From a virus: DNA of 60,985 bases. Shown piece after piece: positions 1 through 60,985 of this stretch. Under the pieces are notes generated by a model. It saw only the letters and a list, made by a program, of their open reading frames with translations. It did not search any database and was not told the origin of the DNA. Each line of letters starts with the position of its first letter. Within the stretch, counting starts at the first letter, position 1. Position numbers and translations under genes: made by a program. Where the stretch lies: the IMG/VR virus record IMGVR_UViG_3300049043_000348, positions 1 through 60,985 of that record, one strand, 5' to 3'.

Positions 1-237
1 ATGAAAAAAGAACAACTTCTAAACCTTGCAAAAATGAAAAGCGAACACTTAACGGCAAATTCAATGATCCGATTAACCGCCGAAAATAACTCTTTATGGC
101 TGTATAATTTTGGCGGGTTTATTTTTGTAGGTTACCAGATAGAAGAACCCGCAAATCTTTTATTTGATAAAAAAGAAATTTTTGAAATATCAGATAAAAG
201 AGGGAAGACCACCGCAATCGTTCAAAGATTATATTAA
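1..237 (+). CDS. Hypothetical protein, 78 aa
   Basis: The frame opens on the first base of the window and ends at a TAA just before a GC-rich hairpin. The protein is soluble and mixed alpha/beta in composition, with no motif I recognise. It is the first of a co-directional row of small genes that probably continues the + strand genes at the far right of the window if the genome is circular. Confidence 0.6.
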   Translation: MKKEQLLNLAKMKSEHLTANSMIRLTAENNSLWLYNFGGFIFVGYQIEEPANLLFDKKEIFEISDKRGKTTAIVQRLY

Positions 238-245
238 ACAATAAC

Positions 246-264
246 GCGGGGGCAACACCCCCGC
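246..264 (+). terminator. GC-rich hairpin after the first gene
   Basis: GCGGGGG and CCCCCGC form a perfect 7-bp stem around the loop CAACA, followed by ACATTTT. It lies between two small co-directional genes and could end or attenuate transcription. It shows the plain hairpin form without the dispersed motif. Confidence 0.5.
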
Positions 265-297
265 ACATTTTCCCCCAACACATAAAAACCCCAAACA

Positions 298-531
298 ATG
301 AACACACAACACACCACAGAAATTGATACCCAGACAATGAAGGAAACATTTTTGGAGTATATTAACGGCGATTTGACCATATCAGAAATGGCGAATAAAT
401 ACGGAATAAATACCGACTATTTAGAGGCACTAATCAAATACGGGGGAAGTCAATTTGAAGCCGAACAGATGACAAAAGTAAATACCCTTATCTGGGAAAA
501 AATTTCTCTTTTACAATTAGCAAAACATTAA
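298..531 (+). CDS. Small protein with a possible helix-turn-helix
   Basis: This is a 77-residue protein. Residues about 22-48 (YINGDLTISEMANKYGIN) resemble the recognition segment of transposase or sigma-like HTH regulators, in which a short helix is followed by 'ANKYGIN'. The start is preceded by an AAAAACCCC leader rather than a Shine-Dalgarno sequence. A regulatory role is inferred only from this segment. Confidence 0.6.
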   Translation: MNTQHTTEIDTQTMKETFLEYINGDLTISEMANKYGINTDYLEALIKYGGSQFEAEQMTKVNTLIWEKISLLQLAKH

Positions 532-544
532 CACCTATTTTATG

Positions 545-572
545 GCGCGGGGGAAGTCCTCGCGCTATTTTT
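545..572 (+). terminator. Hairpin containing the dispersed motif, followed by a T-run
   Basis: GCGCG at 545-549 pairs with CGCGC at 561-565, and GG/CC may extend the stem. The loop is made by GGGAAGT. The T-rich tail TATTTTT follows. It sits directly after a stop codon, so a terminator role is plausible. Confidence 0.5.
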
Positions 573-597
573 ACCACACACAAAAACCCCCTATTTT

Positions 598-1124
598 ATG
601 ACACACACACAAACCCCCGCAGATTTTCGCACACAATTACAGGAAGAAAGAAAAGCAAAAAGAGAGCAGAAGAAAAAGAAAGACAAGAGGCGAAAGAGTT
701 GGCAAAGGTTGAGGCAATGAAAAACCAAAAGCCTGTTAGCAAAATTGTGATATCTATTGAATGGAAAAAATCAAGAATGTGGGGAAGTAACCCACACGCA
801 GACGCGACAATTTACCACAAAGACGGATCAGTATCTTACGGCTTTGCCAAATGTTCGGGGTGCGGATATGACAAGGAAAGCACCGTCATTGCTGATATTT
901 TCAACAATTTTTTGAGATATAAACTATTCGGGCAACTGATACCCGTTGAAAGATTTGCGGACAATGGCACACCTTACGGGATATATTTGGACACTAAATA
1001 CCCGCACTATTCTGGCGGGATTGGTGCAGATTGTTACCGCGATATATCAAAAGCCATTGGCGGGAAATTTGAACACACCGCGCGGGGCAAGTCCTTTGAT
1101 GTGTTTACCTATACGGAAGAATAA
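598..1124 (+). CDS. Hypothetical protein with a charged N-terminus, frameshifted
   Basis: Reading from the ATG at 598 gives a Lys/Glu-rich start (MTHTQTPADFRTQLQEERKA). This runs out of frame near 672-680, in a poly-A stretch. The continuing frame (unbroken from about 699) runs to 1124 and holds a compact domain with CSGCGY. Joined, the two make about 175 residues with a smooth charged helix across the junction, so a one-base error is likely. I do not recognise the family. The alternative is an independent start at TTG 699. Confidence 0.55.
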
Positions 1125-1131
1125 TGATGAG

Positions 1132-1158
1132 GCGGGGGAAGTCATAAGACACCCCCGC
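1132..1158 (+). terminator. Hairpin with the dispersed motif in its left arm
   Basis: GCGGGGG at 1132-1138 pairs with CCCCCGC at 1152-1158. Inside it GTC pairs with GAC around the loop ATAA, leaving AA against A as an internal bulge. The left arm is a copy of the dispersed motif. It follows the stop codon of the preceding gene. Confidence 0.5.
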
Positions 1159-1194
1159 ACCTTTCACAAAGTTTTAACACCCTCTTTTATCTTT

Positions 1195-1211
1195 ATTAGT
1201 TGTCAATTAAC
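1195..1211 (+). repeat. 17-bp direct repeat ATTAGTTGTCAATTAAC, copy 1
   Basis: The same 17 bases occur at 3441-3457. Both copies lie in the gap after a stop codon, and both follow TTTTAACAC at a short distance. The 14-base core AGTTGTCAATTAAC occurs again at 7259-7272. A promoter or operator for early genes is possible, but the bases do not match the Bacteroidota TTTG/TAnnTTTG pair. Confidence 0.5.
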
Positions 1212-1221
1212 TACATTTACC

Positions 1222-1244
1222 AAACACTAAAACCCCTACCAATG
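1222..1244 (+). promoter_or_regulatory. Duplicated translation leader, copy 1
   Basis: The 23 bases ending in this gene's ATG (AAACACTAAAACCCC followed by TACCAATG) are identical to those at 1422-1444, exactly 200 bp downstream. Other left-end genes have a looser AAAACCCC leader (at about 285, 586, 1910 and 2128). There is no Shine-Dalgarno sequence, so this may be the translation-initiation context of these genes. Confidence 0.6.
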
Positions 1245-1418
1245 AAAAAGAAACTTGAAAAAAAGGCAATTCAATTATTCAATGACCTTGTAAAATTAGG
1301 TATTTATACAAATTATAGAAGTGTATTAAATACAATGTATGAAACAGCCACAGAGAAAAAAAACTACATAGAGGCGCACTATATTAACGAATTAATCGCG
1401 GAAGATATAAACGCATAA
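1242..1418 (+). CDS. Hypothetical helical protein, 58 aa
   Basis: The start at ATG 1242 is chosen because it follows the duplicated leader. An upstream in-frame TTG would lie inside the 17-bp repeat. The protein is Lys-rich and predicted all-helical, with no recognised domain. Its spacing from the RadC-like gene downstream is only the leader copy, so the two are probably co-expressed. Confidence 0.65.
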   Translation: MKKKLEKKAIQLFNDLVKLGIYTNYRSVLNTMYETATEKKNYIEAHYINELIAEDINA

Positions 1419-1421
1419 AAT

Positions 1422-1444
1422 AAACACTAAAACCCCTACCAATG
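1422..1444 (+). promoter_or_regulatory. Duplicated translation leader, copy 2
   Basis: It is identical over 23 bases to 1222-1244 and ends in the start codon of the RadC-like gene. Exact identity between leaders of two unrelated genes points to selection or recent duplication of the leader. Confidence 0.6.
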
Positions 1445-1909
1445 GACACCAAAAAACAAAAAACACCGAAAACGATTAAGCAGTACACCATTAAAAAGCT
1501 AACAGAGGCGGAAGGCATACCCCAAATAAAAATAACAAGTAGCGAAACCGCCTACAATGTTATCCGCCAATTTTGGCACGAAGATATTGAAATTTATGAG
1601 AGCTTTTTTATCTTGTTATTAAACCGCGCCAATGTAACAATAGGTTGGGCAAAAATCAGTCAAGGCGGAATAACGGGAACAGTTGCCGATCCTAAACTCA
1701 TTTTGAAATATGCAGTTGATAGCCTTGCGTCTGGCATAATTCTGGCGCACAATCACCCTTCAGGTACTTTACAGGTATCCCCCGCTGATAAGAGCATAAC
1801 CGAAAAAATAAAACAGGCAGTGAGCTATATTGACACCAATGTTATTGACCACCTTATATTGACACCAGATAATAAATTTTTATCCTTTGCTGATGAAGGA
1901 TTACTATAA
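1442..1909 (+). CDS. radC: RadC-like JAB domain protein
   Basis: This 155-residue protein ends in a RadC-family JAB/MPN domain. The metal-site signature HNHPSGTLQVSPAD is present at about residues 102-115 (H-x-H-x-n-S-x-D), preceded by GITGTVADPKL and SLASGIILA, which are typical of RadC. The N-terminal helix-hairpin-helix half of chromosomal RadC is missing, as in many phage and plasmid copies. The molecular role of RadC is unsettled (repair was once proposed), and JAB folds are often metallo-isopeptidases. The start follows the leader copy. Confidence 0.85.
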   Translation: MDTKKQKTPKTIKQYTIKKLTEAEGIPQIKITSSETAYNVIRQFWHEDIEIYESFFILLLNRANVTIGWAKISQGGITGTVADPKLILKYAVDSLASGIILAHNHPSGTLQVSPADKSITEKIKQAVSYIDTNVIDHLILTPDNKFLSFADEGLL

Positions 1910-1924
1910 AAACCCCATAACCCA

Positions 1925-2053
1925 ATGAAAAAGACACTACTTTTTGCCCTCTTTATTTGCTTATTGCTTACCTCTTGCGCTACTTATAGACAAGCGGGGA
2001 AGGGGGATGTTACTTTGCAAAGAGGAATTTTAATACAAGTAAATCAGTTGTGA
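1925..2053 (+). CDS. Small predicted lipoprotein, 42 aa
   Basis: It starts MKKTLLFALFICLLLTSC: positive N-terminus, hydrophobic core and a lipobox LTSC with Cys at residue 18. The mature part is only about 25 residues. Phage lipoproteins of this kind can act in superinfection exclusion or lysis, but that role is only a possibility here. A GGGGAAGG copy lies within the gene. Confidence 0.6.
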   Translation: MKKTLLFALFICLLLTSCATYRQAGKGDVTLQRGILIQVNQL

Positions 2054-2068
2054 GAATTAGATAATTAT

Positions 2069-2095
2069 GCGGGGGAAGTCCTGACACTCCCCCGT
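2069..2095 (+). terminator. Hairpin with the dispersed motif in its left arm
   Basis: GCGGGGGA pairs with TCCCCCGT (one G-T pair), and the inner GTC/GAC is part of the motif copy GGGAAGTCCTGAC. TATTTTCCCC follows. It lies between the lipoprotein gene and the next gene. A similar structure (GCGGGG/CCCCGC) is at 2709-2738. Confidence 0.45.
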
Positions 2096-2151
2096 ATTTT
2101 CCCCAAACATTAAAACAAAAAAAGTTATGGAAACCCCATAAACAAAACAAA

Positions 2152-2424
2152 ATGAAAAAGACACTAACACCACAAGAAACAAGAGAGGAAGTGAAATCAC
2201 TAAAAGAAATGATTGAGGCCTGTTATACCTATGGCGCAGCCGATAAGACCTCTTACAACTATCAAAGATATCTTTTGCCCTATGCTGAAAAGATTGGTAA
2301 AAGATTATTTAATAGGGTATACAAAGAGCATTTACAGGATCTAATGAAGAATTACACTATAAAATTTGATGTTTATACCGATTGTGAGGGACTTTCTTAC
2401 AATTCATTGGTTAAAAATCATTAA
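2152..2424 (+). CDS. Hypothetical protein, 90 aa
   Basis: This charged helical protein starts MKKTLTPQETREEVKSLKEM and is rich in Tyr. It has no family I recognise. The start follows an A-rich leader (AAACCCCATAAACAAAACAAA). The stop is followed by another motif copy at 2454. Confidence 0.55.
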   Translation: MKKTLTPQETREEVKSLKEMIEACYTYGAADKTSYNYQRYLLPYAEKIGKRLFNRVYKEHLQDLMKNYTIKFDVYTDCEGLSYNSLVKNH

Positions 2425-2497
2425 CAAAAGATTTGCTAAATTATTTTGGTGCGGGGAAGTCCTCACACTATTTTTACACCACACAAAACAAAACACA

Positions 2498-2686
2498 ATG
2501 ACACAGTATTACATTAAATGTTGGGAAACTGAAACAGAAAGAAAACAAGGTAACCCCTTTAAATATGGTCCATACACAGATAAAAATGAATGTTTAAAAG
2601 ACGCAGAACGTATGCACTATTCTGGGTATGCTTTTATTGAAGTTACTGATAAGGAAAATAACCTGTATTGCGAATACGAAAATTAA
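2498..2686 (+). CDS. Hypothetical protein, 62 aa
   Basis: ATG 2498 is chosen over an in-frame codon further upstream because the upstream part overlaps the previous gene and reads as low-quality sequence, while MTQYYIKCWETETERKQG begins after an A/C-rich leader. It is a small alpha/beta protein of unknown role. Confidence 0.55.
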   Translation: MTQYYIKCWETETERKQGNPFKYGPYTDKNECLKDAERMHYSGYAFIEVTDKENNLYCEYEN

Positions 2687-2771
2687 TAAGATCAAAGATA
2701 ACGAAGGCGCGGGGGAAGTTCTGGGGTTTATACCCCGCCCTTCATTTACCAAACCCCTAAAATTTAAACCA

Positions 2772-2954
2772 ATGGAAACAAGAATTAAATCTTTGGAATG
2801 GTGGAAGTCATTACCAAAAGAAAAGCAAATAGAAACAATAGACAAATGGAAATTAGTTACTGAGGATAGAAGAAAAAATTGGGAATTTGAATTGATCACT
2901 ACCTCATCAAGCACTATTGAATTTATTTGTAAAGAATTAAACATTTTCCCCTAA
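2772..2954 (+). CDS. Hypothetical protein, 60 aa
   Basis: METRIKSLEWWKSLPKEKQI opens a Trp- and Lys-rich helical protein. The sequence resembles short phage proteins that bind other proteins, but I cannot assign it. The start follows the leader CCCCTAAAATTTAAACC. Confidence 0.55.
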   Translation: METRIKSLEWWKSLPKEKQIETIDKWKLVTEDRRKNWEFELITTSSSTIEFICKELNIFP

Positions 2955-2970
2955 CATTAAAACAAAACAA

Positions 2971-3147
2971 ATGGAAACACAAACAATTTATTGTACTATT
3001 TGCGAACACGCGTGGATTGAAACCACCGAACAAAGAAAGGATATATTCTATTGTTGTAGTATGTGTAGAGACTTTGAGGAAGATAATGGGGTAGCAATAC
3101 ACGATAATACCTTTGAAGATGATAAAGTAATTGATAGCGGAAATTAA
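2971..3147 (+). CDS. Small zinc-binding protein
   Basis: This is a 58-residue protein with Cys pairs CTIC near residue 8 and CCSMC near residue 28, spaced as in zinc ribbons. The C-terminal half is acidic. It may be a regulatory or nucleic-acid-binding peptide, but nothing more specific can be seen. Confidence 0.6.
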   Translation: METQTIYCTICEHAWIETTEQRKDIFYCCSMCRDFEEDNGVAIHDNTFEDDKVIDSGN

Positions 3148-3169
3148 ATAACCTTTAAAACCTTTATTT

Positions 3170-3427
3170 ATGGCAACTTTTAGTTTTTACATTGATCAAA
3201 AATGTAGTGTTTGGCAACGGGGAATGTTTGATATTCAAGCAGAAACCTACGAACAGGCAAAAGAATTGGCTAAAAACCAAAAATTTGATATTGATGAAAT
3301 AAGTTGGGAAACCTTATGGGAAACCCTTACGGACATTGAATTTGATGATAATAACGGGCAACCAACAATGGAAATTTATAGTAATGATAATGCGGGGGAA
3401 CTTGTGATAACCAATGAACGTTTATGA
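3170..3427 (+). CDS. Hypothetical acidic protein, 85 aa
   Basis: MATFSFYIDQKCSVWQRGMF opens an acidic protein with the segment 'A-E-T-Y-E-Q-A-K-E-L-A', a pattern common in small phage proteins that pair a beta hairpin with a helix. It is unassigned. A variant of the dispersed motif (GGGGGAACTTGTG) lies near its end. Confidence 0.55.
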   Translation: MATFSFYIDQKCSVWQRGMFDIQAETYEQAKELAKNQKFDIDEISWETLWETLTDIEFDDNNGQPTMEIYSNDNAGELVITNERL

Positions 3428-3440
3428 TATTTTTAACACT

Positions 3441-3457
3441 ATTAGTTGTCAATTAAC
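3441..3457 (+). repeat. 17-bp direct repeat ATTAGTTGTCAATTAAC, copy 2
   Basis: It is identical to 1195-1211 and lies in a 119-bp gap between genes. The rest of this gap (3458-3546) holds only an 18-codon frame starting near 3480, which I do not support as a gene. Confidence 0.5.
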
Positions 3458-3546
3458 AATAATTCCCTTAACTTGCTGATGAAAAACATTAACCCTGTGT
3501 TTTATCCTTTATGGTTTTATACGGGTAATTTTTAAAAATATAAACT

Positions 3547-3666
3547 ATGATAACAGAAAGACAAATGATACACCTTGCCCTGCTTATGGATATTATTGCG
3601 GGGGAAGATACCACTAACACTTTACTTGCTGATTGGCTCGTTGATAACAAAATTCAAATTATCTAA
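3547..3666 (+). CDS. Hypothetical peptide, 39 aa
   Basis: MITERQMIHLALLMDIIAGE opens an acidic helical peptide ending NKIQII. A copy of the dispersed motif is inside the frame and encodes AGED. The spacing to neighbours supports a real gene, but the function is unknown. Confidence 0.45.
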   Translation: MITERQMIHLALLMDIIAGEDTTNTLLADWLVDNKIQII

Positions 3667-3687
3667 CCCACAAATTCCCCCTACATT

Positions 3688-3928
3688 ATGAAAACAACCT
3701 ACCCCCCAAACACCGCAACAAACTCGCAAGGATTGGGAACAACACGCGAAGAAAACAACAGATCAATGGTTCAACCACATAAGCACACAGAACATTGACT
3801 ATGACGCGTTAGAAAGGCAGTTATTCGCCCTTCGTAAAAGATTGGCTAATTGTAGGCAAGAGCATTATTACCCGCTTAAACAAAAGGTAATGAACATACA
3901 AAGGCTACTCGCCACAAGACAAAACTGA
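3688..3928 (+). CDS. Hypothetical helical protein, frameshifted
   Basis: From ATG 3688 the first frame is MKTTYPP. After the CCCCCC run the frame must change to continue KQTPQQTRKDWEQH and on to a TGA at 3928. The joined product is about 80 residues, basic and helical (DALERQLFALRKRLANCRQE). The break is at a homopolymer, so a base-count error is the simplest reading. Confidence 0.45.
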
Positions 3929-3968
3929 AGGTTGGAATAACTATTTAGCAAAATAAAATTTAAAACCT

Positions 3969-4184
3969 ATGCAAACCTATTACAGAGTATTTGACCACCA
4001 GAGGGGTATTTATTTCGCCACAGGATATAATGCCCGAAGTATGGAAGAATTGATTAGCGATTTTCGTTCCTATATGCAAGTGGAAGAAGATGAAAACAAC
4101 CGCACTTGGTCGCAAATTGCAGATAGCCTACAAGATATTACACTTGAAAAAAGTAATACACCTTTTGATGAATTTGATATTTAA
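3969..4184 (+). CDS. Hypothetical protein, 71 aa
   Basis: MQTYYRVFDHQRGIYFATGY opens a small alpha/beta protein with an acidic tail. It lies between two genes with similar A-rich leaders ('AAATTTAAAACCTATGCAAAC' type). The family is unknown. Confidence 0.55.
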   Translation: MQTYYRVFDHQRGIYFATGYNARSMEELISDFRSYMQVEEDENNRTWSQIADSLQDITLEKSNTPFDEFDI

Positions 4185-4205
4185 AACAAATAAAACTTTA
4201 AACCT

Positions 4206-4784
4206 ATGCAAACCACTAATTTATTCGCCAAGACCACAACAAAGACAAGCGCACCTAAGAAAGCCGACAAAAAGGTATTAACCGCCCACCAATTTAGGGG
4301 ATAAGGTAAAAAGGTATGCCGACCTCAAAAACCAGATTGATGCCCTTACAGGGGAATTAAAGATGATTGAGGGGGATATTAAACTAACAGGTAAGGAACT
4401 CTTTTTAGATCAATATAAGAAAGAAAAGAGGACACCCGATAACTTTAAGATACAAGATGAAACGGGGAGTAGTTGCCTATTTATTGTAATGGATAAATAC
4501 ACTTCTGTTGATGATGATAAGGCAGAACTACTGCGCAATTTTGACGGATTGTTGGGGGAAAATGTAGTGTACAAATTCAACACCGAACTCGTTGAAAAGT
4601 ATGGCGCAATTTTATCCGACCTTATCACTTCTTCCCCGACATTGAAGAAACAGACAAAGGCAACTTAATCAGCGGGGAAAAGACCTACTCCATAGCCAAA
4701 GGAAGTATTGACCGCTTATTGCAGTTTTCAAACCCCGAACAGGTATTGGAACTTATTAACCCTATTTGCTCACTTAAAAAATAA
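4206..4784 (+). CDS. Conserved-looking hypothetical protein, two frameshifts
   Basis: The gene starts MQTTNLFAKTTTKTSAPKKA. It shifts frame near 4290 and then reads through an unbroken 101-codon stretch (4363-4668) with GDKVKRYADLKNQIDALTGE-like coiled coil before and FKIQDETGSSCLFIVM after. It shifts again at TCTTCCCCGAC (4629-4640) into DIEETDKGNLISGEKTYSIA and stops at 4784. One extra C at the second site restores the frame. The repaired product is about 190 residues, function unknown. Confidence 0.5.
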
Positions 4785-4789
4785 TTATT

Positions 4790-5026
4790 ATGTCTTGGGA
4801 AGTCCTCGCAGACCTGCCCTGTGATATGGCAGTATCGTACAACAAAGAACGCATAACACAAATTGAGGAAGGACACGGAAGGCACGACCTATCCGGTATG
4901 TACTACACCCTCAACTATGTTAAGGTATATTTTGGCGATGAGCCGATTGACATTACCAAAATGCTAACCAAACAAATGGAAGATTTTATCTTTCAACAAA
5001 TAAAAGATATGGAAAATGAACTATAA
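4790..5026 (+). CDS. Hypothetical protein, 78 aa
   Basis: MSWEVLADLPCDMAVSYNKE begins five bases after the previous stop. A copy of the dispersed motif (TTGGGAAGTCCTCGCAG) covers codons 3-7. The C-terminus overlaps the start of the ligase-like gene by 11 bases, so the two are probably translationally coupled. The family is unknown. Confidence 0.6.
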   Translation: MSWEVLADLPCDMAVSYNKERITQIEEGHGRHDLSGMYYTLNYVKVYFGDEPIDITKMLTKQMEDFIFQQIKDMENEL

Positions 5027-5669
5027 TGAATTTAAGTATCTGTACCCGCCTCGCCCTCAGTATAAGATACCACCCGTAGATCTTGACCAGTACGAAGGGG
5101 AATTTGTAGCGCAACCAAAGTACAATGGGACTGCCTGTATAGTATTTACTAACGGGGACGAACTGAAAGTATTTAACAGGCACAAGCTACCCCTTGCAAA
5201 GTATTCGCCCTTTATTCAGTTTAGAGGACTTGCAAAGAGTAATAAATGGGTAGTGTACTGCGGGGAATATCTTAACAAAGGACAAAAGGGAGAGGCGGGA
5301 GAAGTAGAACGAGATAAGTTTATTATCTGGGATTTGCTTGTGTATGACGGGGAATATCTGATAGGGCAAACTCTTATTGATAGGGTTAAGATTGTAGACC
5401 AGAACTTCCCGTGCATACCCTCAAAAGTATCGGATAAAGGACTTGAAATATATGACTACCTCTGTTGCACAGACCTTGAAGGTATCTATAAAGCACCCCT
5501 GTATGGCGCGGGTTTTGAGTACCTCTATAAAGACCTTGTTAAAACACCCCTGTACGAAGGGATAGTCCTTAAAAAGCAGAACGCAAAACTATCGTATGGC
5601 TTTCAAGAGAAGAACAACTCTGAATGGCAACTAAAATGTAGAAAACAGAACGCCTTGTATAACTTTTAA
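5016..5669 (+). CDS. ATP-dependent DNA/RNA ligase-like nucleotidyltransferase
   Basis: This 217-residue protein has the ordered motifs of the covalent nucleotidyltransferase superfamily. Motif I is QPKYNGTA (residues about 34-41) with the adenylated Lys. Motif III is VVYCGEYL, motif IIIa FIIWDLLVY, motif IV YEGIVLKK and motif V EWQLKCRK near the C-terminus. It is shorter than replicative ligases and has no OB-fold extension, so it could seal nicks in DNA or RNA. The product would join 5'-phosphate and 3'-OH ends using ATP. Confidence 0.8.
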   Translation: MNYNEFKYLYPPRPQYKIPPVDLDQYEGEFVAQPKYNGTACIVFTNGDELKVFNRHKLPLAKYSPFIQFRGLAKSNKWVVYCGEYLNKGQKGEAGEVERDKFIIWDLLVYDGEYLIGQTLIDRVKIVDQNFPCIPSKVSDKGLEIYDYLCCTDLEGIYKAPLYGAGFEYLYKDLVKTPLYEGIVLKKQNAKLSYGFQEKNNSEWQLKCRKQNALYNF

Positions 5670-5679
5670 ATTAAAAACT

Positions 5680-5956: not shown

Positions 5957-5961
5957 ACATT

Positions 5962-8337: not shown

Positions 8338-8544
8338 CGTAACAATTAGTTTCGTATATCTCTTTTATTCCGGTGTGTATTATTTTTAATGACATCTGAC
8401 GGATTTCCCTGATTAGTTGCTTCTCATCTTCCCCCAACATAACAAAATCAAAATCTTCTAATGCAGACAAGGCACTAAAACAAGCTGTTATGTCTTCGTG
8501 GGGGAAAGGTTGATAGGGATATTATCGTCAAGAAGGTCTTCCAT
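8309..8544 (-). CDS. Hypothetical protein, frameshifted
   Basis: MEDLLDDNIPINLSP overlaps the stop of the metallophosphoesterase gene (TAATG). It shifts at the C-run (8500-8504 on +) into HEDITACFSALSALEDFDFV and ends at 8309 with an acidic tail. One more C repairs the frame and gives about 78 residues. A second motif copy lies at 8428. Confidence 0.45.
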
Positions 8545-10292
8545 TAGTGTAATTTACCATTTATTATCGTAAAATTCTTGACTGTAAAGTCACCATTTTT
8601 TTCAACAGTTATATGTGCAAACCCGTGTAATGAATTGGAAATCAAGGGACTGTAGTTTGGTCGCAATTCACACAAACAAGAAGTCGACCAAGCTCCAACA
8701 ACTTCGCCATCCAAGTTTACTTCGGGATGAAAACTTGCACGATGTAAGTGACCTACTATTATGTTTTGCTTTGCCTTCATATAAGCACCTCTGGCCGGAG
8801 ACACAGGGGCAAATATGCCTTTGAAAATGTGGTGGCCGTGGGTAATAGATAACTTTCCCGCCTTCACCAGTACTTTATCATCAATTAGGTGTACTCTTTC
8901 CTCATTCAGTTTTAATCGTTCCTCTAAATGGAAATAAGGATCATCCCAAATCTCTTGCACTTTCTGAAGTAAGAATTTTTCCCAACGGACGCAGTTACCA
9001 CTAAAGGCAGACTTACCTTCATAGCGGGTTACAATGGTTCCGTTTGGCATTTCAAGACAATAAACAAAGCCGTCATAGTCTTGCGCCTTAATTGATTTAG
9101 TGTGATTAACGGAAAATGTTTTACGGAATTTAGCCTTGTATTGAATTTTCCCGTTTGCAAAACCGGACTTATTTATAAAAGCTCCATAAGAAATAAAGTA
9201 CAAATCATTTAAAATACACATCTGATGAATAACATCTATATCATTCTTAGAAGTAGTATCCCAAAATACTCCATTATCTTTTAAGCTCCCGTCTGTCATC
9301 ATTATCTGCTCATAAACTATTTCAGCTTGTCTCTTTGAAAGTTTGGCAAAGAATTGTGGGAACTCTTTTTTACAACCTAATAAATTGTAAACCTCTTGAG
9401 CTGGATTTCCGTAAAAACGGATATAGTAAGGCTGAAGTTTATTGATGCCAGACTTTTTGCAAATCTTAAACGAGTATTTATACCCTATTTTATCTAATAT
9501 CTCTTTCAGGTTTTCAATCTTCCTTTCCTTTGAAATCTTGAATTGCACCCGCATCTTGTTTGCCCCATACTTCTTATCAAGGACAAAGCAGCCGTCACAG
9601 ACCACGTTAACAAGTAGCTTCAGCATTTCATCTGATATGTCGTAGTCTGGGTTATTAACATTTCCCGTTACAGGAATATGTTTTAAGTCTGCTATGCTCA
9701 AGTCTTGTGCCTTTACCTTATGACTTCCCACGACAACATCGTGTTCATTTGTTACCACTTGTCTGGAAAAGCCAGTCTCAATATCATAAACCAAGCCTTG
9801 ATACTCTCTTTTTAGGAATGATAGTGGACGGGAAAATCTCACGTTCATAGCCTCGTCAAATTCAGCCACCTTATCGTCTGCCGTAAGTTCCCTGAAGTCA
9901 ATAAAACCTCTTTCCGTTAGCACCTCAGTACCTTCCACGTAGCAATGATTACCTTTTATCCAGTATATTTCCGCGTCTGGGAAAATCTGGCGCAACACTC
10001 GTAGGAACTGCTTAGTAGCGTCAAACTCCTGCTTAACACTTCTCTTATGCGGATCTCTCTCAAATCTGCTAACTTGATGATTATCAATGAGGTCGCCATT
10101 AATTATGATAGTATTAACCTTATGTTCTACTCCATACTCAAGGGCAATAGTTAAAGCATCTATATCGTGATAGGGTATGTGTAAGTCTGATATTAGGAGT
10201 ATGTTGTTGCACGTTAGGGGAAGTTGTAGTGGTTCCCGTTTCTCCTGATAGCTCTCAGGCAGATTGTAAGGGTTTTTAGGACGCTCTGGCAT
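8544..10292 (-). CDS. Calcineurin-like metallophosphoesterase interrupted by an intein
   Basis: The host protein is a phosphoesterase: ILLISDLHIPYHD (D-x-H), INGDLIDNHQVSRF (G-D), then IKGNH at residues 112-116, GHHIF and VGHLHRAS for metal binding. The GNH motif is cut at Cys117 by a 317-residue intein, and the protein resumes at CVRWEKFLLQKV. The exteins total about 265 residues. Substrates may be nucleic-acid ends or cyclic nucleotides. An N-terminal piece (10319-10483) is separated only by a one-base shift. The product is active only if splicing restores GNH-C. Confidence 0.85.
   Translation of the reverse strand: MPERPKNPYNLPESYQEKREPLQLPLTCNNILLISDLHIPYHDIDALTIALEYGVEHKVNTIIINGDLIDNHQVSRFERDPHKRSVKQEFDATKQFLRVLRQIFPDAEIYWIKGNHCYVEGTEVLTERGFIDFRELTADDKVAEFDEAMNVRFSRPLSFLKREYQGLVYDIETGFSRQVVTNEHDVVVGSHKVKAQDLSIADLKHIPVTGNVNNPDYDISDEMLKLLVNVVCDGCFVLDKKYGANKMRVQFKISKERKIENLKEILDKIGYKYSFKICKKSGINKLQPYYIRFYGNPAQEVYNLLGCKKEFPQFFAKLSKRQAEIVYEQIMMTDGSLKDNGVFWDTTSKNDIDVIHQMCILNDLYFISYGAFINKSGFANGKIQYKAKFRKTFSVNHTKSIKAQDYDGFVYCLEMPNGTIVTRYEGKSAFSGNCVRWEKFLLQKVQEIWDDPYFHLEERLKLNEERVHLIDDKVLVKAGKLSITHGHHIFKGIFAPVSPARGAYMKAKQNIIVGHLHRASFHPEVNLDGEVVGAWSTSCLCELRPNYSPLISNSLHGFAHITVEKNGDFTVKNFTIINGKLH
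8994..9944 (-). mobile_element. Intein with LAGLIDADG homing endonuclease
   Basis: Residues 117-433 of the phosphoesterase frame form the intein. It starts with Cys117 (CYVEGTEVLTERG, block A). Block B has TNEHDVVV with the Thr/His pair at 181-184. Two LAGLIDADG-type helices follow, LLVNVVCDGCF (226-236) and IVYEQIMMTDGS (325-336). Block F (DGFVYCLEMPNG) comes next, and the C-terminus ends SGN433 before a Cys+1. The usual penultimate His is Gly, as in some other phage inteins. The insertion point is a catalytic metal-binding motif, the type of conserved site inteins favour. Confidence 0.9.
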
Positions 10293-12306: not shown

Positions 12307-12334
12307 GGGGAAGTCCTGACTGCTAAGACTTCCC
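12307..12334. terminator. Inverted pair of dispersed-motif copies forming a hairpin
   Basis: GGGGAAGTC on + and GACTTCCC at 12327-12334 form an 8-bp perfect stem around an 11-base loop. On the - strand it follows the stop of the 12342 gene and leads into TTACATTTTAAAA. It resembles the way inverted uptake-sequence pairs act as terminators in other bacteria. Confidence 0.5.
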
Positions 12335-13434: not shown

Positions 13435-13856
13435 TGCGCTAAGGGAAGTCTTGTCACGACTTCCCCGAGGCATACTACTTTCTTTTTTTGTTCCATTAAA
13501 ACTTTCATCATTGCTTTTAATTCAGCAACTTCAGCTTCTAACTCTTTGATTTTTTGTGTGTTAGGGGAAGTCTTAACACTTGGTTCCTCAAATTTAGCTT
13601 TGTATGCACTACTTGGCCCTGATGCTGATTCAGGAGCTGGTTCTGGAAGGTATCCTGTCATCAAGTAGTACACCGTTCCGTCAATTTCAACAGGTATGGC
13701 ATAGCCCGTAGATCCACCGATTGCAGTTCCGTAAGTCCCCAATTTCCAGCTTCCGGCGCTTCCCCAGAAGGTGCTGCGGTTTTTATTGAGCCTGCCAAAA
13801 GTTGAATTTCCATCTCCAGTAATGGCTAAATAATGCTTTGGATGTATCTCCAGCAT
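13431..13856 (-). CDS. Hypothetical virion-associated protein with C-terminal coiled coil
   Basis: This 141-residue protein has a Gly/Thr-rich beta N-terminus (GDGNSTFGRLNKNRSTFWGS, TGYAIPVEIDGTVYYLMTGY), a Pro/Ser linker and a coiled coil at about residues 101-130 (KIKELEAEVAELKAMMKVLM). The last residues, LGEVVTRLPLAQ, are encoded by an inverted pair of motif copies. It follows the tail fibre gene and may assist it. Confidence 0.5.
   Translation of the reverse strand: MLEIHPKHYLAITGDGNSTFGRLNKNRSTFWGSAGSWKLGTYGTAIGGSTGYAIPVEIDGTVYYLMTGYLPEPAPESASGPSSAYKAKFEEPSVKTSPNTQKIKELEAEVAELKAMMKVLMEQKKKVVCLGEVVTRLPLAQ
13443..13465. repeat. Inverted pair of dispersed-motif copies
   Basis: GGGAAGTC (13443-13450) and GACTTCCC (13458-13465) form a perfect 8-bp stem with a 7-base loop (TTGTCAC). 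The pair overlaps the 3' end of the 13431-13856 gene on the - strand. A terminator role is possible. Confidence 0.5.
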
Positions 13857-50679: not shown

Positions 50680-50820
50680 CTATTTCTTTTTTAAATCATT
50701 AAATATGTTACGCCAATAAAATCTTTCATAATTTCTATAAAATTCAATACCACATATAGTATACAAAAAAAATTCTTTAATCCTATACATACTTACATTT
50801 ATAAATTCTAATAATCTCAT
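50680..50820 (-). CDS. Small basic/aromatic protein, 46 aa
   Basis: MRLLEFINVSMYRIKEFFLY is chosen as start because ATGA overlaps the upstream stop. It is Tyr/Phe-rich with several basic residues. The role is unknown. Confidence 0.4.
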   Translation of the reverse strand: MRLLEFINVSMYRIKEFFLYTICGIEFYRNYERFYWRNIFNDLKKK

Positions 50821-52253
50821 AGCTTTTCTATTTCGTTTATTGCGTTTAGGACTTGACTTGTTGTGTATTTTGCGCAAGGGGGAAGTTCTGAGTCAATATA
50901 ACAAGGCTCACTTTCCACACCAATTTGCTGATGCCAACAAAATGGTTTCATACAGATTGGGTTGTCGGTGGAGTGATTTGTAAGGATAACTTTATCCAAT
51001 AGGTCAGGATGTACCACTTCGGGGTTTGTGTTGCCAAAAAATAGGATTGACGGCACACCAAAGGCTGATGCTACGTGGCTCACGCCTGAATCAATACCTA
51101 TAAATAGGTCAGCACTTCCCACAACATAACAAAGAAAGTTTTCGTTTTGTGTATTAATGTAAATAGCGTTCTTTATTAGAGGTACGTTTCTTTTTCCTAC
51201 TTGAAATACCGAATAACCTTTTGCTTGCAGGCTCGCTACCACATTTTCCCAGTCCACCCCAAATACTCCTCTACCAGACTGCCTAATGCCCTCTAAGTGT
51301 ATTACACAGCTCTTTTTAAACAGCTTGGTAGTTTCCATAATTGGAAACCCTACTGATAGCTTAGGATTACGCATTTCCCCGTCCTTGATACCGCAGAATT
51401 GATAGTAGCTCTTTAATCTGTTCTGTAATGGGAAGGCTTCGTAAGCCATATCAAGGTTATATCTTTCTGCTCTTGGTAGTAGTCTTCCGTCTATTTGTTT
51501 TATGTGGTGTACGGGGAAGTAGTGGTTCACAAAAAGCATATAAAAGTTCTCAGGGGTATCAAGCACCACTCTATAACCCTTTTTATGAAAGTAATGTAGA
51601 ACGGGTTCAACCATTATTACGTCACCCATAGCTGCACTTCTTTTGATAATAACCGTAGGCTGATAAGGCTTATGGAATCTTCCGTGAAATCCAAATGTAT
51701 CGTAAATGGGCGCTCTTAATTCATAAGAAAATTTATCTGCTAAATCCTCTGGGGCGTATGTTATTTTATAAAACTTTATTAAGTAATCTCTATAAAGCCT
51801 CCCAATTGCTTGGTCTTCCGGATCGGTAGCAACAATAAAATCATCAAGAGTAAGCGCCGATTGAAGTTTTTTAGACCTAATAGAAAATCCTCCATTACCG
51901 ACATTTTTGCCGTCTGGATAAGTCCAAGGCGCGCCTATGTAATCATAATGCAAAAATTCTGGCAGCCACGACTTCCCGTTCAGCACATACCCATCTGCTT
52001 GAATAACCAATACAAAGTCTGTATCAAAATACTTGTATAGCTCTTTAATCATAAAGTAGCTGTACTCTTCTTTTGACCTAATAGTAGGGATATTTATTAC
52101 CTCAATTCCCTCAAATTCAAAAGGCTTGTCTGTAATAAATTTAACGGCAGCAAAGTCACATTCGGCCATACTTTTTCGTATAGCCGCTACTGCTTCTCCG
52201 TGATTAACACAGTCTACACAGATTAGGGTTACATTACTTAGACTTGTTTTCAT
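50817..52253 (-). CDS. Two-domain glycosyltransferase (DUF5672 plus GT9-like)
   Basis: The first 190 residues have VLVIQADGYVLNGKSWLPEF and YIGAPWTYPDGKNVGNGGFS, hallmark segments of DUF5672 transferases. The second half is like heptosyltransferases (GT9): KRSAAMGDVIMVEPVLHYFH at its start, VIHLEGIRQSG, VVGSADLFIGIDSGVSHVAS and a C-terminal donor-site segment. The fusion is uncommon. The likely substrates are activated heptose-type sugars, given the biosynthetic genes nearby. Such enzymes can decorate host surface or virion glycans. Confidence 0.75.
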   Translation of the reverse strand: MKTSLSNVTLICVDCVNHGEAVAAIRKSMAECDFAAVKFITDKPFEFEGIEVINIPTIRSKEEYSYFMIKELYKYFDTDFVLVIQADGYVLNGKSWLPEFLHYDYIGAPWTYPDGKNVGNGGFSIRSKKLQSALTLDDFIVATDPEDQAIGRLYRDYLIKFYKITYAPEDLADKFSYELRAPIYDTFGFHGRFHKPYQPTVIIKRSAAMGDVIMVEPVLHYFHKKGYRVVLDTPENFYMLFVNHYFPVHHIKQIDGRLLPRAERYNLDMAYEAFPLQNRLKSYYQFCGIKDGEMRNPKLSVGFPIMETTKLFKKSCVIHLEGIRQSGRGVFGVDWENVVASLQAKGYSVFQVGKRNVPLIKNAIYINTQNENFLCYVVGSADLFIGIDSGVSHVASAFGVPSILFFGNTNPEVVHPDLLDKVILTNHSTDNPICMKPFCWHQQIGVESEPCYIDSELPPCAKYTTSQVLNAINEIEKL

Positions 52254-53740: not shown

Positions 53741-53894
53741 ATGCCAATTTGTTTCTGAGTTCTTCCAGCTCATTTTTAAGCTGGTCTAAGGATTGTTCCA
53801 CGTGGAGCTTTAAGGCAGCCAATATTTTAACTTGGTCTACCACGTCAGACTTGGAAAGTTCCTTGATAATCTTTTCAATGTTTGCTTTTGCCAT
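53739..53894 (-). CDS. Short coiled-coil protein, 51 aa
   Basis: MAKANIEKIIKELSKSDVVD is followed by a Leu/Glu/Lys heptad region (LHVEQSLDQLKNELEELRNK). The start overlaps the upstream gene as TAATG. It is probably co-transcribed with the HTH gene from the promoter at 54114-54144. Confidence 0.55.
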   Translation of the reverse strand: MAKANIEKIIKELSKSDVVDQVKILAALKLHVEQSLDQLKNELEELRNKLA

Positions 53895-54109
53895 TAGTCT
53901 ATGTATTTGTTTGTGATAAAATAGGATACGAGCTGTGTGGTGTTCTTGCAATTAAACTTTGCTCTTACAAGTTGTAGTTTGTAGGCAAATGTATTTTTGT
54001 TAAGACCGACCTTTTCAGCTACCCCTTTTGCTTTCTCGCCACTCGCCAAGAGGCGAACCCAAAGGATTTCTTCCTCTGTCGGAATGGGCGGTGTGTAGTT
54101 TTCTTCCAT
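53894..54109 (-). CDS. LuxR-type helix-turn-helix regulator
   Basis: Starting MEENYTPPIPTEEEILWVRL, the 71-residue protein has LASGEKAKGVAEKVGLNKNT and YKLQLVRAKFNCKNTTQLVS, the DNA-binding four-helix GerE/LuxR pattern. There is no sensor domain. An upstream in-frame Met lies before the promoter, so the start at 54109 is preferred. It may regulate the divergent gene pair. The mRNA would be nearly leaderless. Confidence 0.7.
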   Translation of the reverse strand: MEENYTPPIPTEEEILWVRLLASGEKAKGVAEKVGLNKNTFAYKLQLVRAKFNCKNTTQLVSYFITNKYID

Positions 54110-54113
54110 ACTG

Positions 54114-54805: not shown

Positions 54806-54807
54806 TT

Positions 54808-57106: not shown

Positions 57107-57715
57107 GAGATTTATTGCAACTGTAATTTGGGACGAGGACTGGTTTTCTCAAAATGCCGGCAGAATACAAACTTTTTTGGTTTTATATGTTATCAAGTTG
57201 CGACCACGCAGGACTATTTAAGGTCAATTTGAGGTCATTTTCTAGTCTAAATGATAAATTGAGAAACAAGAAGAAGCTTTAAAGTATTTTAATAATGGCA
57301 AAGATAAAATCATGCTTGAAAATCAATCAGTTTGGCTTATTGAAGACTTTTTTGCCTTTCAGTATGGAACTACTTTAACCCGAAAAACAGAGTTCACCAA
57401 AGCATAGAAGACCTCTATATTTTATATGGTAACCATCAATTAGACTCAAATTAGAGGTCTAAAAGACACTAAGGAAAGGGTTAAGGATAAGGATAAGGAT
57501 CTCGATAGTAATCTAATGGATTATCAATCACTTGGAAAAGGGGGTATGGGGAAAAACTTTAAAACAGGGTTATGTTTTGGATTTAGGCAACAACAGGGTT
57601 TATTTCGATCCTGAAAAAACAATTTGGCAAGAACTTGGGCCTGAACAAAAAAAACTTTCGATTTCAAGAGAAATGAAAGTTACCGCGAATCATCGAAGGA
57701 AAAATTTTTTAAAAA
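57099..57715 (+). CDS. Replication-initiation-like protein, several frameshifts
   Basis: Pieces in alternating frames read MAKRFIATVIWDEDWFSQ, MPAEYKLFWFYMLSSCDHAG, NGKDKIMLENQSVWLIEDFF and KERVKDKDKDLDSN, then VLDLGNNRVYFDPEKTIW. The W-x-D-x-W-F and C-D-H-A-G pattern matches replisome-organiser or DnaD-type proteins found next to primase-helicases in phages. At least four indels break the frame. Confidence 0.5.
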
Positions 57716-59624
57716 ATGTATTTCGACCAACTCACAAAATTAGGATATCGCAGATTGCGCAAGCGCGGCGCGTCAAGAAAAACAACTTGTCCTCAATGCT
57801 CTGCTGGAAGAAAAAAGAAGACCGATCCGTGTTCTTTCGGTGAACATTAACGAGGGAAGTTACAATCGTTTTAATTGACAAACTGGCAGGGTAATGTTAG
57901 GATCTTTTATCCCAAGAGAAACGATAAAAAAATTTGAAAAACCAAGTGAGGTATATGCTGAAAAGCATTGACTTAAACGAAAAAATTAAAAAGTTTTTTA
58001 GCGACCGAGCAATTTCTGAAAAAACTTTAAAAAAATTTTTTATTCACGGCAAAGAAGAGTGGCTGCCTCAGACAAACGAAAAGGTCGCTGCATTGTCTTC
58101 CCTTACATTCGTAATAGTGAAATTGTTAATGCAAAGTATCGGCGACGGTAATAAAAATTTTAAACTTGTAAAGGGAGCAGAATTGGTTTTTTTTGGAATG
58201 CAAACCCTTGAGGGCCGTAGGTGCGCAATTATCGTGGAAGGAGAAATTGATGCTCTTCCTGCCTATGAAGCCGGTTTTGGTCAAGTACTATGAACCAACC
58301 TGTAATCAAGACGGGGAAGTTGTGGAACACGAACTTGGTAGGTTTGCGGTTTTGTCGGTTCCAAATGGCGCAAGTGCAGGGAACAACAGGTTGGAGTATT
58401 TGGATAACTGTGCAGAGTATCTAATCGACATCGAAGAGTTTGTGATAGCAACCGATAACGATACGGTCAAGCCCTTCGGGATGAGTTAATACGCCGTTTC
58501 GGCGTGGAAAAGTGCCGAACTGTCAGGTGGGAAATCCTAAAATCGCACCAGACGCACGGAAACGGCCCAAAAATCGCACCAAAAGATTTCAATGAGGTAT
58601 TGTGCCACTTTGGAAAGAGGGCCTTAAATCGCTTGTATTGAGTTCGCAGGAAGTTCCGGTGGATGGAATTTTTTATGTGGAAGACCTGGAGGATACAATG
58701 TTGAGAAAAAATTCAATAAAAGGTGTTCAGCTCGGGGATACGACTTCGTTTCCAAGAACTCGATACGATTTTTAGATGGAGAAAAGGTGATATAAATGTG
58801 TTTATAGGTTATGCGAATGGGGTAAAACTTTTTTTGCTCTTCAATTAATGTTAATTAAAAAAACTATTTCGGGATGGGTGGAGGTGGGCGGTATTTAGTC
58901 CAGAAAATTATCCCAGCAGATGATTTTTATGACGATATGGTAGAAATGTATGTTGGCAAGTGGATTAAAAATATGTCAAGAGAAGAATATATAGAAGCGA
59001 TTGATTTTATAAATAATCACATTTACTTTATTTACCCAAGTGATGAACATTCCATAGAAAATATACACGAAAAATTCAAGTATCTTATTATGAAAAAAGG
59101 ATTAAATGATGATTCAATAAATTTAATCAATTAGATAAAACACAAAGAGCATACGAAAGGGATGACCAATATATGAGTGTTGTATTTAAGGATATAAAAG
59201 GTTTGCGCTTATGAATAGAGTTTGCTATAACGTAGTTATGCATCCTAAAAATCCACCAGCTCCAAATGGTAATGCTTTACCAGTTGTTGGCCCTTATGAT
59301 ATTGCTCAGGGTGCTATGACAAATAATAAAGCAGACCAAATATTATCTTACTATAGACCAAACTATCACATAAATCCAGATGATACAAGAGTGGAACTAT
59401 ACTAAAAAAGTGAAAAGACGTAAAACTGGCGGGAAAATAGGAATGGTAGAATTGAATCTTAATTGGAACATAAAAAGATTCTTTGATCCTATTACTCAAA
59501 TGCCTTTCAACCAAAAAGAGGCTAAGAGAACCACATCTTCCCACAACCCAATAACATAACACAAGGAGAGATATCCAATAACTGGCTACCCTCTAAAGAT
59601 GATAGTACTGAAGCACCTTTTTAA
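57716..59624 (+). CDS. Primase-helicase (T7 gp4-like), broken by frameshifts
   Basis: Fragments in order: zinc-finger CPQCSAGRKKTDPC; KNFKLVKGAELVFFGMQTLE and the TOPRIM core IVEGEIDALPAYEAGFGQ; EYLIDIEEFVIATDND. The helicase part follows, with NVFIGYANG before the ATP loop, WAVFSPENYPADDFYDDMVE, VVMHPKNPPAPNGNALPVVG, and a C-terminus TEAPF from another frame. This fits a primase fused to a DnaB-type helicase. At least six indels separate the fragments, and the Walker A sequence is damaged as sequenced. Confidence 0.7.
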
Positions 59625-60325
59625 TGTAGGGGAAGATATCACACAGTAAAAATTTATTATGGTTACTATTATAAACAAAGATTTTCAGAGAGTGTGTTTT
59701 ACCCGACGGCTTGGTTATTACCGATACCTCCGTATAATCAAGGTTATTCTTATAACTCTTACAAGGATAGAATTAGCGAAGAATCTTATATAGAATTATT
59801 TGTCAAAAATACCAAAGCCTTTGCGTTATTGTTCATTATCCAGAAGAAACCATAAACTTATCTACCTAAAGCGTTAAATATAAAATGCGAACAAAGCCTG
59901 TTTCTTGGGTTTATGATCGGGATATGCAGGCGAACAAAGTGGCGATTTAATTGGTTTGGTGAGGACTGTGAGCCGGATCCGAGAAAAGTTAGACAAGAGT
60001 CTAAAAATTTAAAAGACAAAAGAATACAAGCTAGAATTGCTGCTGGTAACTCGGGGTGCTACGCTTTATGATTGGTGGGAAATTAATCAAGTGAAAAATG
60101 TAAGCAAAGAAAAAACAAGTCACCCTTTGTCAAATACCGGAAGAGATAATTAAAAGAATTATATTAACAACGGCTAATAAAGGTCAAATTCTTATTGATA
60201 CCATTCTGGGGGAAGTGGGACAACGGCAAAGAGTTGCAAATGATTTAGGGTTTAATAGTTTCATCTATGAAGTCGATGAAAAGTATATTCAAATAATAAA
60301 CAATAGAATAAACACTAACCAATGA
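59625..60325 (+). CDS. DNA methyltransferase (N4/N6 type), frameshifted
   Basis: Pieces read KIYYGDYYYKQRFSESV, ITDT-PYNQGYSYNSYKDRIS (DPPY-type motif IV), RFNWFGEDCEPDPRKVRQES and QIPEEIIKRIILTTANKGQI. The end carries LIDT, GTTAK- and ANDLGFNSFIYEVDEKYIQI. In an intact enzyme the last segment would contain DPFxGSGTT; here a GGGGGAAGT copy lies exactly at that point and the reading is disturbed. It would methylate adenine or cytosine at a specific site. The site is unknown. Confidence 0.55.
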
Positions 60326-60791
60326 TAATTCACAAAAACACACACGCACCTAAGACTTCCCCGACTACTAATTAAACCCAAGCTATTAGCTTATAGAGTA
60401 GGATTTACAGAATCTTGTAGGTATGATTTAGGAATGAGAGACCAAGGAGATATTAATAAACTATTTGGAGTAGGATATTTTCCCTCACACCACGAAAACT
60501 CTGTACGAGTAGGATGGAACTATGACATAGTATCAGGAAGGATGAACATCCTTGCTTATTGGTATGTAGGGGGAAAACGCGACTGGCAATACCTAAGAAA
60601 GCGTAGATGTTGGAGTAATGTATTATTTTAAAATGTATATTGACGATGAGTATGCACAGATTAGATATTGCAGGGAAGAAACTACCCATTAGATGTCGAC
60701 AGTACACCTGTTTGCTTTTTATTAAGACCTTACTTTGGGTGGGAATAGAACTGCGCCACACGATATTATAATTGACTTAAATAAATTATGA
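60322..60791 (+). CDS. Conserved phage protein, frameshifted
   Basis: MIIHKNTHAPK begins by ATGA overlap. After a shift at ACTTCCCCGACT (60356) it reads RLLIKPKLLAYRVGFTESCR and MRDQGDINKLFGVGYFPSHH (open 60434-60631), SGRMNILAYWYVGGKRDWQY, then after another shift MYIDDEYAQIRYC and RPYFGGNRTAPHDIIIDLNK. The order matches a family of small phage proteins of unknown role. It is likely co-transcribed with the next gene (ATGA). Confidence 0.5.
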
Positions 60792-60985
60792 AACCACTAC
60801 AAAGATCTGTAACAGGAGAATTTAAAGAAGTTAAAAGAGTACTTGCGTCTGGCGTTAGTATTCGCGAAGCTGCGAGACTATGCAAGGTGAGTTATTATTT
60901 AGCTTGGCACGTCCGTAAGGGAAGTTATGACGGAGTAGCTATCTGTCTGAAACATTTAAAAAAAAGGAAAATGAAAAATATTTAG
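60788..60985 (+). CDS. Helix-turn-helix protein, 65 aa
   Basis: MKPLQRSVTGEFKEVKRVLA is followed by GVSIREAARLCKVSYYLAWH, a homeodomain-like HTH of the kind found in small phage regulators and NUMOD-type binding domains. A motif copy (60919) lies in the gene. It ends on the last base of the window. Confidence 0.6.
   Translation: MKPLQRSVTGEFKEVKRVLASGVSIREAARLCKVSYYLAWHVRKGSYDGVAICLKHLKKRKMKNI

Follow-up and report, generated by a model that had tools for sequence, protein, structure and literature searches.

Several dense or dispersed DNA words are known from bacterial and phage genomes. HIP1 (highly iterated palindrome 1) of cyanobacteria is a palindromic, dense, genome-wide word without known function, and the KOPS and SRS signals (FtsK-orienting polar sequences and SpoIIIE recognition sequences) are polar, with strand skew along the replicon. 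Among phages, those of Pasteurellaceae are reported to build up uptake sequences, reaching about 750 per Mb (PMC6776037), and lambdoid phages without a recombinase to carry Chi at about 0.2 per kb (PMC3784561). Cluster A mycobacteriophages carry 20-30 repressor sites, most of them stoperators, which are described as following transcription and co-varying with the repressors (PMC6550527); these repressors bind asymmetric sites as monomers (PMC9283540). Sites for the integration host factor (IHF) span 35 bp and have an AA-N4-T-N-R layout behind an A/T tract (PMC8421141). Here we describe a motif built on the word GGGAAG that recurs throughout the IMG/VR virus record IMGVR_UViG_3300049043_000348, all 60,985 bases of which were analysed and are referred to as the window. 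None of Chi, the stoperators, and the phage uptake signal sequences (USS) equals this motif in density, extent, and restriction together; we class the motif as a genome-wide recognition signal outside all of these known families, and a search of the open-licence literature found no description of it. An earlier sequence-only reading of the window, which knew of no description of such a density in a phage of this kind, is to be qualified by the reports of phage USS, Chi, and stoperators (PMC6776037, PMC3784561, PMC6550527).

GGGAAG occurs 131 times in the window, 76 times on the + strand and 55 times on the - strand (about 76 and about 54 by the earlier hand count), with the first copy at 202 and the last ending at 60924; base composition predicts 15.3 copies, close to the earlier estimate of about 15. 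The control consisted of 500 shuffles in which synonymous codons were permuted among the predicted genes and 3-base blocks between genes. These gave 30.7 +/- 5.1 copies of GGGAAG (maximum 47), so that the excess over codon-shuffled sequence, which the sequence-only reading had proposed as a check, is borne out. It is steeper for longer words: GGGAAGW was observed 123 times compared with 20.4 in codon-preserving shuffles, GGGAAGWNNYG 64 times compared with 2.2 (maximum 6), and GGGAAGWHNYGR 48 times compared with 1.3 (maximum 5). Control words fell inside the shuffle range, both the reversed word GAAGGG (36 vs 26.7, maximum 42) and the one-base variants GGGATG (15 vs 19.7) and GGGTAG (21 vs 16.2). 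The claim that A or T follows the word in about 95% of + copies holds for 123 of the 131 copies overall, and the two variant copies that had been singled out are present, at 26186 and 7043. As had also been noted, copies lie in coding sequence in different frames and between genes: with a simple caller of open reading frames, 98 are coding and 33 intergenic, and all six frames are used.

The density of exact GGGAAG in the window is 2,150 per Mb. In many records, plain expectation-maximisation (EM) locked on to codon periodicity, and a codon-phase-aware background was therefore used; the resulting model finds 161 sites with a T-rich upstream flank in the window, 88 of them on the + strand, or 2.64 per kb (about 2,640 per Mb), and gave no usable motif for several records outside clade A (defined below). 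A weight matrix trained on the relative G005 finds 131 sites in the window at 13 bits (mean 7.9 in 100 shuffles).

The full motif is asymmetric and about 35 bp long, with a T-rich, C-poor tract at -17 to -8 followed by GGGAAGWNNTGR. The consensus for clade A1 (the window and its close kin) was taken from 744 sites, counted after identical 40-mers had been collapsed. It has T at 0.46 and C at 0.10 across -17 to -8, G or T at -5 and -4, an almost invariant GGGAA at 0 to 4, G at +5 (0.69), either A or T at +6, a pyrimidine at +9, G at +10 (0.77), and a purine at +11. Across all five groups of sites, the T fraction at -17 to -8 is 0.42-0.46 and the C fraction 0.10-0.14. In the window, the deviation from shuffled copies of the word extends from -14 to +21. 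The motif of roughly 11 bases in the sequence-only reading is thus real as a dispersed signal, although it is longer than was proposed and its GGGAA core outweighs the sixth base, which is G in about 70% of A1 sites. The matrix is not palindromic, and the comparison with HIP1, likewise a dense genome-wide word, is weak because HIP1 is a palindrome and the motif is not; of the likenesses suggested earlier, those of layout to uptake sequences or Chi stand. The array and its local arrangements in the window are as follows:

202-60924, both strands: GGGAAG array, 131 exact copies and 161 EM model sites, coding and intergenic.
202-3607, + strand: ten consecutive + copies of GGGAAG, with no - copy within 1-4000.
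12308-12334, both strands: convergent motif pair, 27 bases, 8-base perfect inverted arms.
13443-13465, both strands: convergent motif pair, 23 bases, 8-base perfect inverted arms.
36875-36901, both strands: convergent motif pair, 27 bases, 9-base perfect inverted arms.
41900-41926, both strands: convergent motif pair, 27 bases, arms perfect over 6 bases.

These four are the convergent pairs within 30 bases in the window, three of them 27 bases long. A polar strand skew of the KOPS/SRS type was not found: the strands are mixed along nine records, with a local + run at 1-4000 of the window. Within that run, 7 of the 10 copies have the context GCGGGG(G)AAG, and two, at 1136 and 2073, may sit within a hairpin of the form GCGGGGG...CCCCCG, as read from the unfolded sequence. 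Relative to gene strand, 59 model sites in the window have the same and 63 the opposite orientation, and this near-even use disfavours a role as promoter, terminator, pause site, or RNA element. The spacing resembles the elemental pause consensus of RNA polymerase, and a polymerase pause is disfavoured by the same near-even strand use.

Among relatives found through the terminase, GGGAAG is the top or joint-top enriched 6-mer, judged by composition, in 23 of 24 loci with a terminase identity of at least 79%; in this set, L015 has 8 copies compared with 1.7 expected. In five aligned pairs of relatives, 53-75% of sites are found again at the corresponding position and on the same strand, and the whole GGGAA core is preserved at 66-82% of aligned sites, compared with 29-39% for any 5-mer. 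Fourfold-degenerate sites in the core are conserved at 79-87% compared with 47-56% outside in four A1 pairs, at 91% compared with 81% and 81% compared with 58% in two A2 pairs, and at 57-60% compared with 42-45% in two A1-A2 pairs. The gain is smaller in the flanks: in the A1 pairs, fourfold conservation at +7 to +12 is 63-76%. The origin of the sites can be followed against G019, a relative without the motif that aligns over 5.7 kb at 71% identity in blocks that include, by position, the primase, terminase, portal, and coat genes. Counting only sites with every base aligned, the relaxed sites in these blocks number 15 in G010 and 3 in G019, with none shared; 14 in G009 and 2 in G019, with none shared; and 11 in G005 and 4 in G019, with two shared. 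Gap-free sites make up 14 of 16 in the G010 comparison, and 14 of 15 and 11 of 13 in the other two. The unshared gap-free sites differ by substitutions, and one or two sites per comparison carry a gap. In these alignments, then, it was mostly by substitution that sites arose or were lost.

Among the records examined, the motif is restricted to two clades. In clade A, which comprises A1 and A2 (terminase about 80% identical), there are 1.7 to 3.3 sites per kb; G012, in which a GT-rich run dominated the sites, was left out of this range and of the A2 flank table. The distant clade B (terminase 43-45%) is also enriched in GGGAAG relative to shuffles (L169, 59 vs 10.8; L161, 32 vs 8.0; L154, 31 vs 7.2; L166, 32 vs 9.6; L160, 16 vs 6.4; L167, 12 vs 2.7), and the model places 60 to 143 sites in each of five clade B records. 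A weight matrix trained on the clade B record G031 finds 79 sites in the window at 13 bits compared with 6.7 in shuffled sequence, which indicates that the clade B signal is the same in kind. A1, A2, and clade B have the GGGAA core in common and differ in the flanks, and the relatives between them are largely without the motif. The dialects comprise A or T at +6 and Y at +7 in A1, T at +6 and G at +7 in A2, TGT at -5 to -3 in B1, and A at -2 in B2; the A1-A2 differences at +6 and +7 have p values of 7.7e-36 and 7.9e-48, with related sites treated as independent.

For records with a terminase identity of 35-71%, 12 of 14 are within the codon-shuffle range for GGGAAG, and G019 (20 vs 11.2, maximum 17) and G023 (34 vs 24.9, maximum 32) are slightly above it; the 20-kb loci L133, L136, L137, L146, and L165 have 1.5 to 1.8 times the shuffle mean. 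The cultured cousins elemo, phi38:1, Gundel_1, and Manatee Spring podovirus have no GGGAAG excess in one 25-kb stretch each. From cultured relatives, as judged by terminase, the hosts are probably Bacteroidota; searches of genome contigs with TerL and RadC for host-side relatives found none. An IMG/VR scan with a pattern of 14 specified bases gave at least 118 loci. Among the matches listed, 16 of 118 have counts above the shuffle maximum for GGGAAG and also for the relaxed word, several of them on one contig, and all 16 are similar in protein to clade A or B, L301 weakly so (1.7 kb); within this sample, that makes a signal common to every phage of a given host somewhat less likely. Also among the matches listed, a few other loci are above the maximum for one word only, such as L226 (7 GGGAAG vs 1.8) and L297 (25 vs 13.9, maximum 20) for GGGAAG and L250 for the relaxed word (23 vs 10.6, maximum 18), and in 48 loci for which the GGGAAG count alone was evaluated it is near its mean. 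Sister lineages over-represent other G-rich words: CGGGT in G018 (64 vs 17.3), G022 (56 vs 16.4), and G021 (36 vs 13.4), and GGCGG in G014 (108 vs 34.9), with L081, L083, L111, and L073 as example loci for G018, G022, G021, and G014. These words are short and have no long T-rich flank, and are not regarded as motifs of the same type.

The motif is very probably a selected DNA-level recognition site. That the motif occurs on both strands, extends asymmetrically over a long stretch, and includes an A/T tract suggests a protein gripping double-stranded DNA, and we infer that a protein binds the sites. The explanation that we tentatively prefer, as a fair possibility rather than a probability, is that the copies are distributed binding sites for a sequence-specific factor that would mark or organise the phage genome. 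Sites of about 35 bp would be recognised by an asymmetric DNA-binding factor that acts on phage DNA and not on transcripts. Selection would maintain the sites throughout the genome at about 2 to 3 per kb, mostly via point changes in the sequence already present, with clade-specific dialects varying around the fixed GGGAA core. During infection, the bound factor would mark or organise the genome as a nucleoprotein, whether by bending or compaction, by distinguishing it from host DNA, or by protecting it. What binding does, and the attribution of the factor to the phage lineage rather than the host, are guesses. In a more specific and quite doubtful form of this explanation, a genome-wide nucleoprotein would form on 35-bp sites of altered IHF-like layout, read in clade A by a LuxR-type helix-turn-helix (HTH) protein and in clade B by another reader; the motif would be a phage self-tag written by point mutation genome-wide, with reader specificity having diverged between the clades. 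The likeness to IHF sites lies in the AA-N4-T-N-R spacing, the A/T tract to the left, the extent of about 35 bp, and the asymmetry. The motif core is GGGAANNNNTGR, whereas IHF sites have WATCARNNNNTTR with an upstream A-tract; GGGAA stands in place of ATCAR and TG rather than TT, and the tract is T-rich on the motif strand. The IHF-like spacing is therefore taken as a lead only.

The candidate reader in clade A is the following gene, which sits where leftward and rightward genes diverge:

53894-54109, - strand: stand-alone LuxR/GerE-type HTH protein, 71 aa (Pfam GerE).

The protein is 71-74 aa long across clade A records. Pfam GerE is over its cut-off in 12 of 14 clade A records and in 0 of 15 others (G017 is below the cut-off); the two negative clade A records, G003 and G007, are both short, and L131 places the end of the G007 contig within the gene. 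An IMG/VR scan with two exact peptides from the HTH profile gave 14 loci, all on clade A contigs. The recognition helix is NKNTFAY(K/R)LQ in A1 and NRNTFAYHLR in A2, and the motif also differs between A1 and A2. An AlphaFold2 prediction (pLDDT 89) has as its Foldseek neighbours the DNA-binding domains of VraR, LiaR, GerE, and NarL, all with E > 0.001, and the sequence matches to RhlR and VpsT are weak. In clade B, the G032 protein has a borderline GerE match (23.4 bits, or 23.9 with neighbours, for a cut-off of 23.5) and was not recovered by a search with the clade A HTH profile. Outside both clades, G017 has a weak homologue, and the recognition helices of G017 and G039 differ from those of clade A; the G039 homologue is at G039:C1:48698-48862 (L180), and G039 over-represents CTGCGC/CCTGCG. 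The G039 and G032 matches pull opposite ways on the HTH protein as reader. In G031, a small protein that is XRE-like by eye (L187:855-1148) is encoded at a comparable site of leftward and rightward divergence; no search confirmed that likeness.

Several observations weigh against distributed binding sites read by a phage factor. The gaps between sites in the window are Poisson-like (coefficient of variation 1.0) and not even, and opposite-strand sites are somewhat commoner in all nine records tabulated (487 same and 616 opposite in sum). Positions +7 to +12 gain no fourfold conservation in the A2 pairs (67% vs 81% and 60% vs 58%), and between A1 and A2 there is no such gain in the left flank. 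The resemblance to IHF sites was recognised in retrospect, and the core has other bases. G039, which lacks the motif, has an HTH homologue (34.2 bits for GerE; E 3e-9 with the clade A profile), whereas four of the five clade B records (G029, G030, G031, and G033, which may be incomplete) have the motif and no GerE match; on these grounds the LuxR-type HTH protein was rejected as a universal reader. Candidate searches of the phage records gave no general reader. Among 71 families found in at least 3 clade A records, none is common to clade B yet absent from the motif-less relatives. No gene of the HU/IHF family (DNABII) is over the Pfam cut-off in 36 records, and the one sub-threshold match, in G029, has a stop inside. 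Lastly, eight further clade A records were compared, and the early window genes shared with clade B were found in none of them. Those at 3170, 4363, and 5016 are common to clade B and some short clade A contigs; as reader candidates they were rejected, being missed in those eight records and two of them also occurring in the motif-less L206.

An uptake-type signal read by the host, as USS are in Pasteurellaceae, would mean that the phages adopted a sequence by which the host marks its own DNA; we regard this as unlikely. The motif resembles the USS and the DNA uptake sequences of Pasteurellaceae and Neisseriaceae in being genome-wide, on both strands, and both coding and intergenic, in having inverted pairs and dialects, and in the layout of a short core with an A/T-rich tract about a helical turn away. 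The accumulation of USS in Pasteurellaceae phages provides a precedent, and the window and clade B share early genes (such as DNA ligase, 55-58% identity), as phages of related hosts might. However, 2,640 model sites or 2,150 exact copies per Mb exceed the 750 per Mb reported for those phages, and the motif is at about 3.5 times the phage saturation frequency of the Hin-USS, with site definitions differing between the two (PMC6776037). USS are also reported to mark many kinds of phage (PMC6776037), whereas the 16 motif-rich loci of 118 among the matches listed resemble one phage family, one of them weakly. The same source describes all its large, likely lytic phages as USS-poor, and no integrase is among the best 25 families of each list examined here.

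In a stoperator-like system, the clade A LuxR-type protein encoded at 53894-54109 would bind all sites and silence or tune the phage genome, which we consider unlikely. The parallels are the many asymmetric sites, the clade-specific consensus, and the HTH protein that accompanies the motif in clade A, where recognition helix and motif both differ between A1 and A2; the confinement of GerE and of the peptide loci to clade A and the G032 match at the cut-off fit as well. Such systems have 20-30 sites following transcription (PMC6550527), compared with 161 here that are mostly coding and show no agreement with transcription direction. The HTH protein is not matched to the motif outside clade A, given the clade B records without a GerE match, the failure of the clade A profile with G032, and the clear homologue in G039 and weak one in G017 with other recognition helices. 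Its presence within clade A is moreover confounded with common descent.

Also unlikely, in our assessment, is a Chi-like role, in which the motif would stop or redirect a host nuclease of the RecBCD/AddAB type and many copies would favour phage survival and recombination; on that view, sister clades that favour other G-rich words would infect hosts whose Chi differs. Chi is likewise a G-rich, asymmetric word with clade-specific forms, and recombinase-less E. coli phages, T5-like and P1-like phages included, are reported to over-represent it (PMC3784561). The CGGGT of G018 and G022 and the GGCGG of G014 could be read in the same way, and no annealing recombinase is among the best 25 early-gene families of each list. 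Against this, the motif is more than tenfold denser (2.6 per kb compared with 0.2 in the phages of PMC3784561). Its conserved context of about 35 bp is far longer than the 8 bp of Chi and is not confined to 5-8 bp, and an extent of -14 to +21 is long for a short nuclease signal. The sister words have no long T-rich flank. Chi enrichment crosses phage families, whereas the 16 motif-rich loci among the matches listed resemble one family, and the phages encode recombination-type enzymes of their own, an exonuclease (phrog_5715) and a NinG/Rap endonuclease.

An artefact, a codon or amino-acid bias, or a mobile repeat (of the repetitive extragenic palindrome or miniature inverted-repeat transposable element type) can practically be dismissed: although frameshifts in the early region of the window leave sequencing quality possibly imperfect there, and one or two sites per G019 comparison carry a gap, the basecalling or assembly errors feared in the sequence-only reading are ruled out by independent relatives that carry the same motif with its core conserved at fourfold-degenerate sites, bias by the codon shuffles and the use of all six frames, and a mobile repeat by the ungapped substitutions that distinguish 14 of 16 aligned sites from the motif-less G019.

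Other genes of the window include the following:

45768-47477, - strand: terminase large subunit (PHROG 6681), the query for relatives.
43812-45446, - strand: portal protein (PHROG 6547).
57716-59621, + strand: T7-like primase-helicase, located by tblastn of the intact 635-aa G005 protein; in several frames here.

The G005 primase-helicase has Pfam Toprim and DnaB_C matches. Relatives have this gene and the next intact, but in the window (57716-60788, + strand) both are spread over several frames, suggestive of sequencing errors or of decay there. The metallophosphoesterase gene at 8544-10292 (- strand) encodes 582 aa compared with 366 aa in G005, and a sub-threshold Pfam intein-splicing match (22 bits, cut-off 35.8) suggests an intein. 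The DNA ligase (5016-5669), RadC-like (1442-1909), and 101-aa (4363-4668) genes, all on the + strand, are 44-68% identical to those of clade B records; found in short clade A-like contigs but in none of the eight other clade A records in the comparison, these early genes have probably been exchanged. L206 and L211 have ligase or phosphoesterase genes in common with these phages, yet lack the motif. The protein encoded at 50817-52253 (- strand) matches DUF5672 and glycosyltransferase family 9.

Genome signals that are dense, under selection, and split into dialects have been described mostly in naturally competent bacteria and as recombination hotspots. In these phages, one site about every 400 bases, under selection at synonymous sites, points to a requirement along the whole phage genome. 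Should the phage itself supply the reader, the motif would amount to a novel means by which viruses mark or organise their DNA. Should the host supply it, the motif could be used to trace which hosts uncultured phages infect, and it would reveal a DNA-processing signal not yet known from these hosts. Either way, the dialects provide a natural experiment in the co-evolution of recognition.

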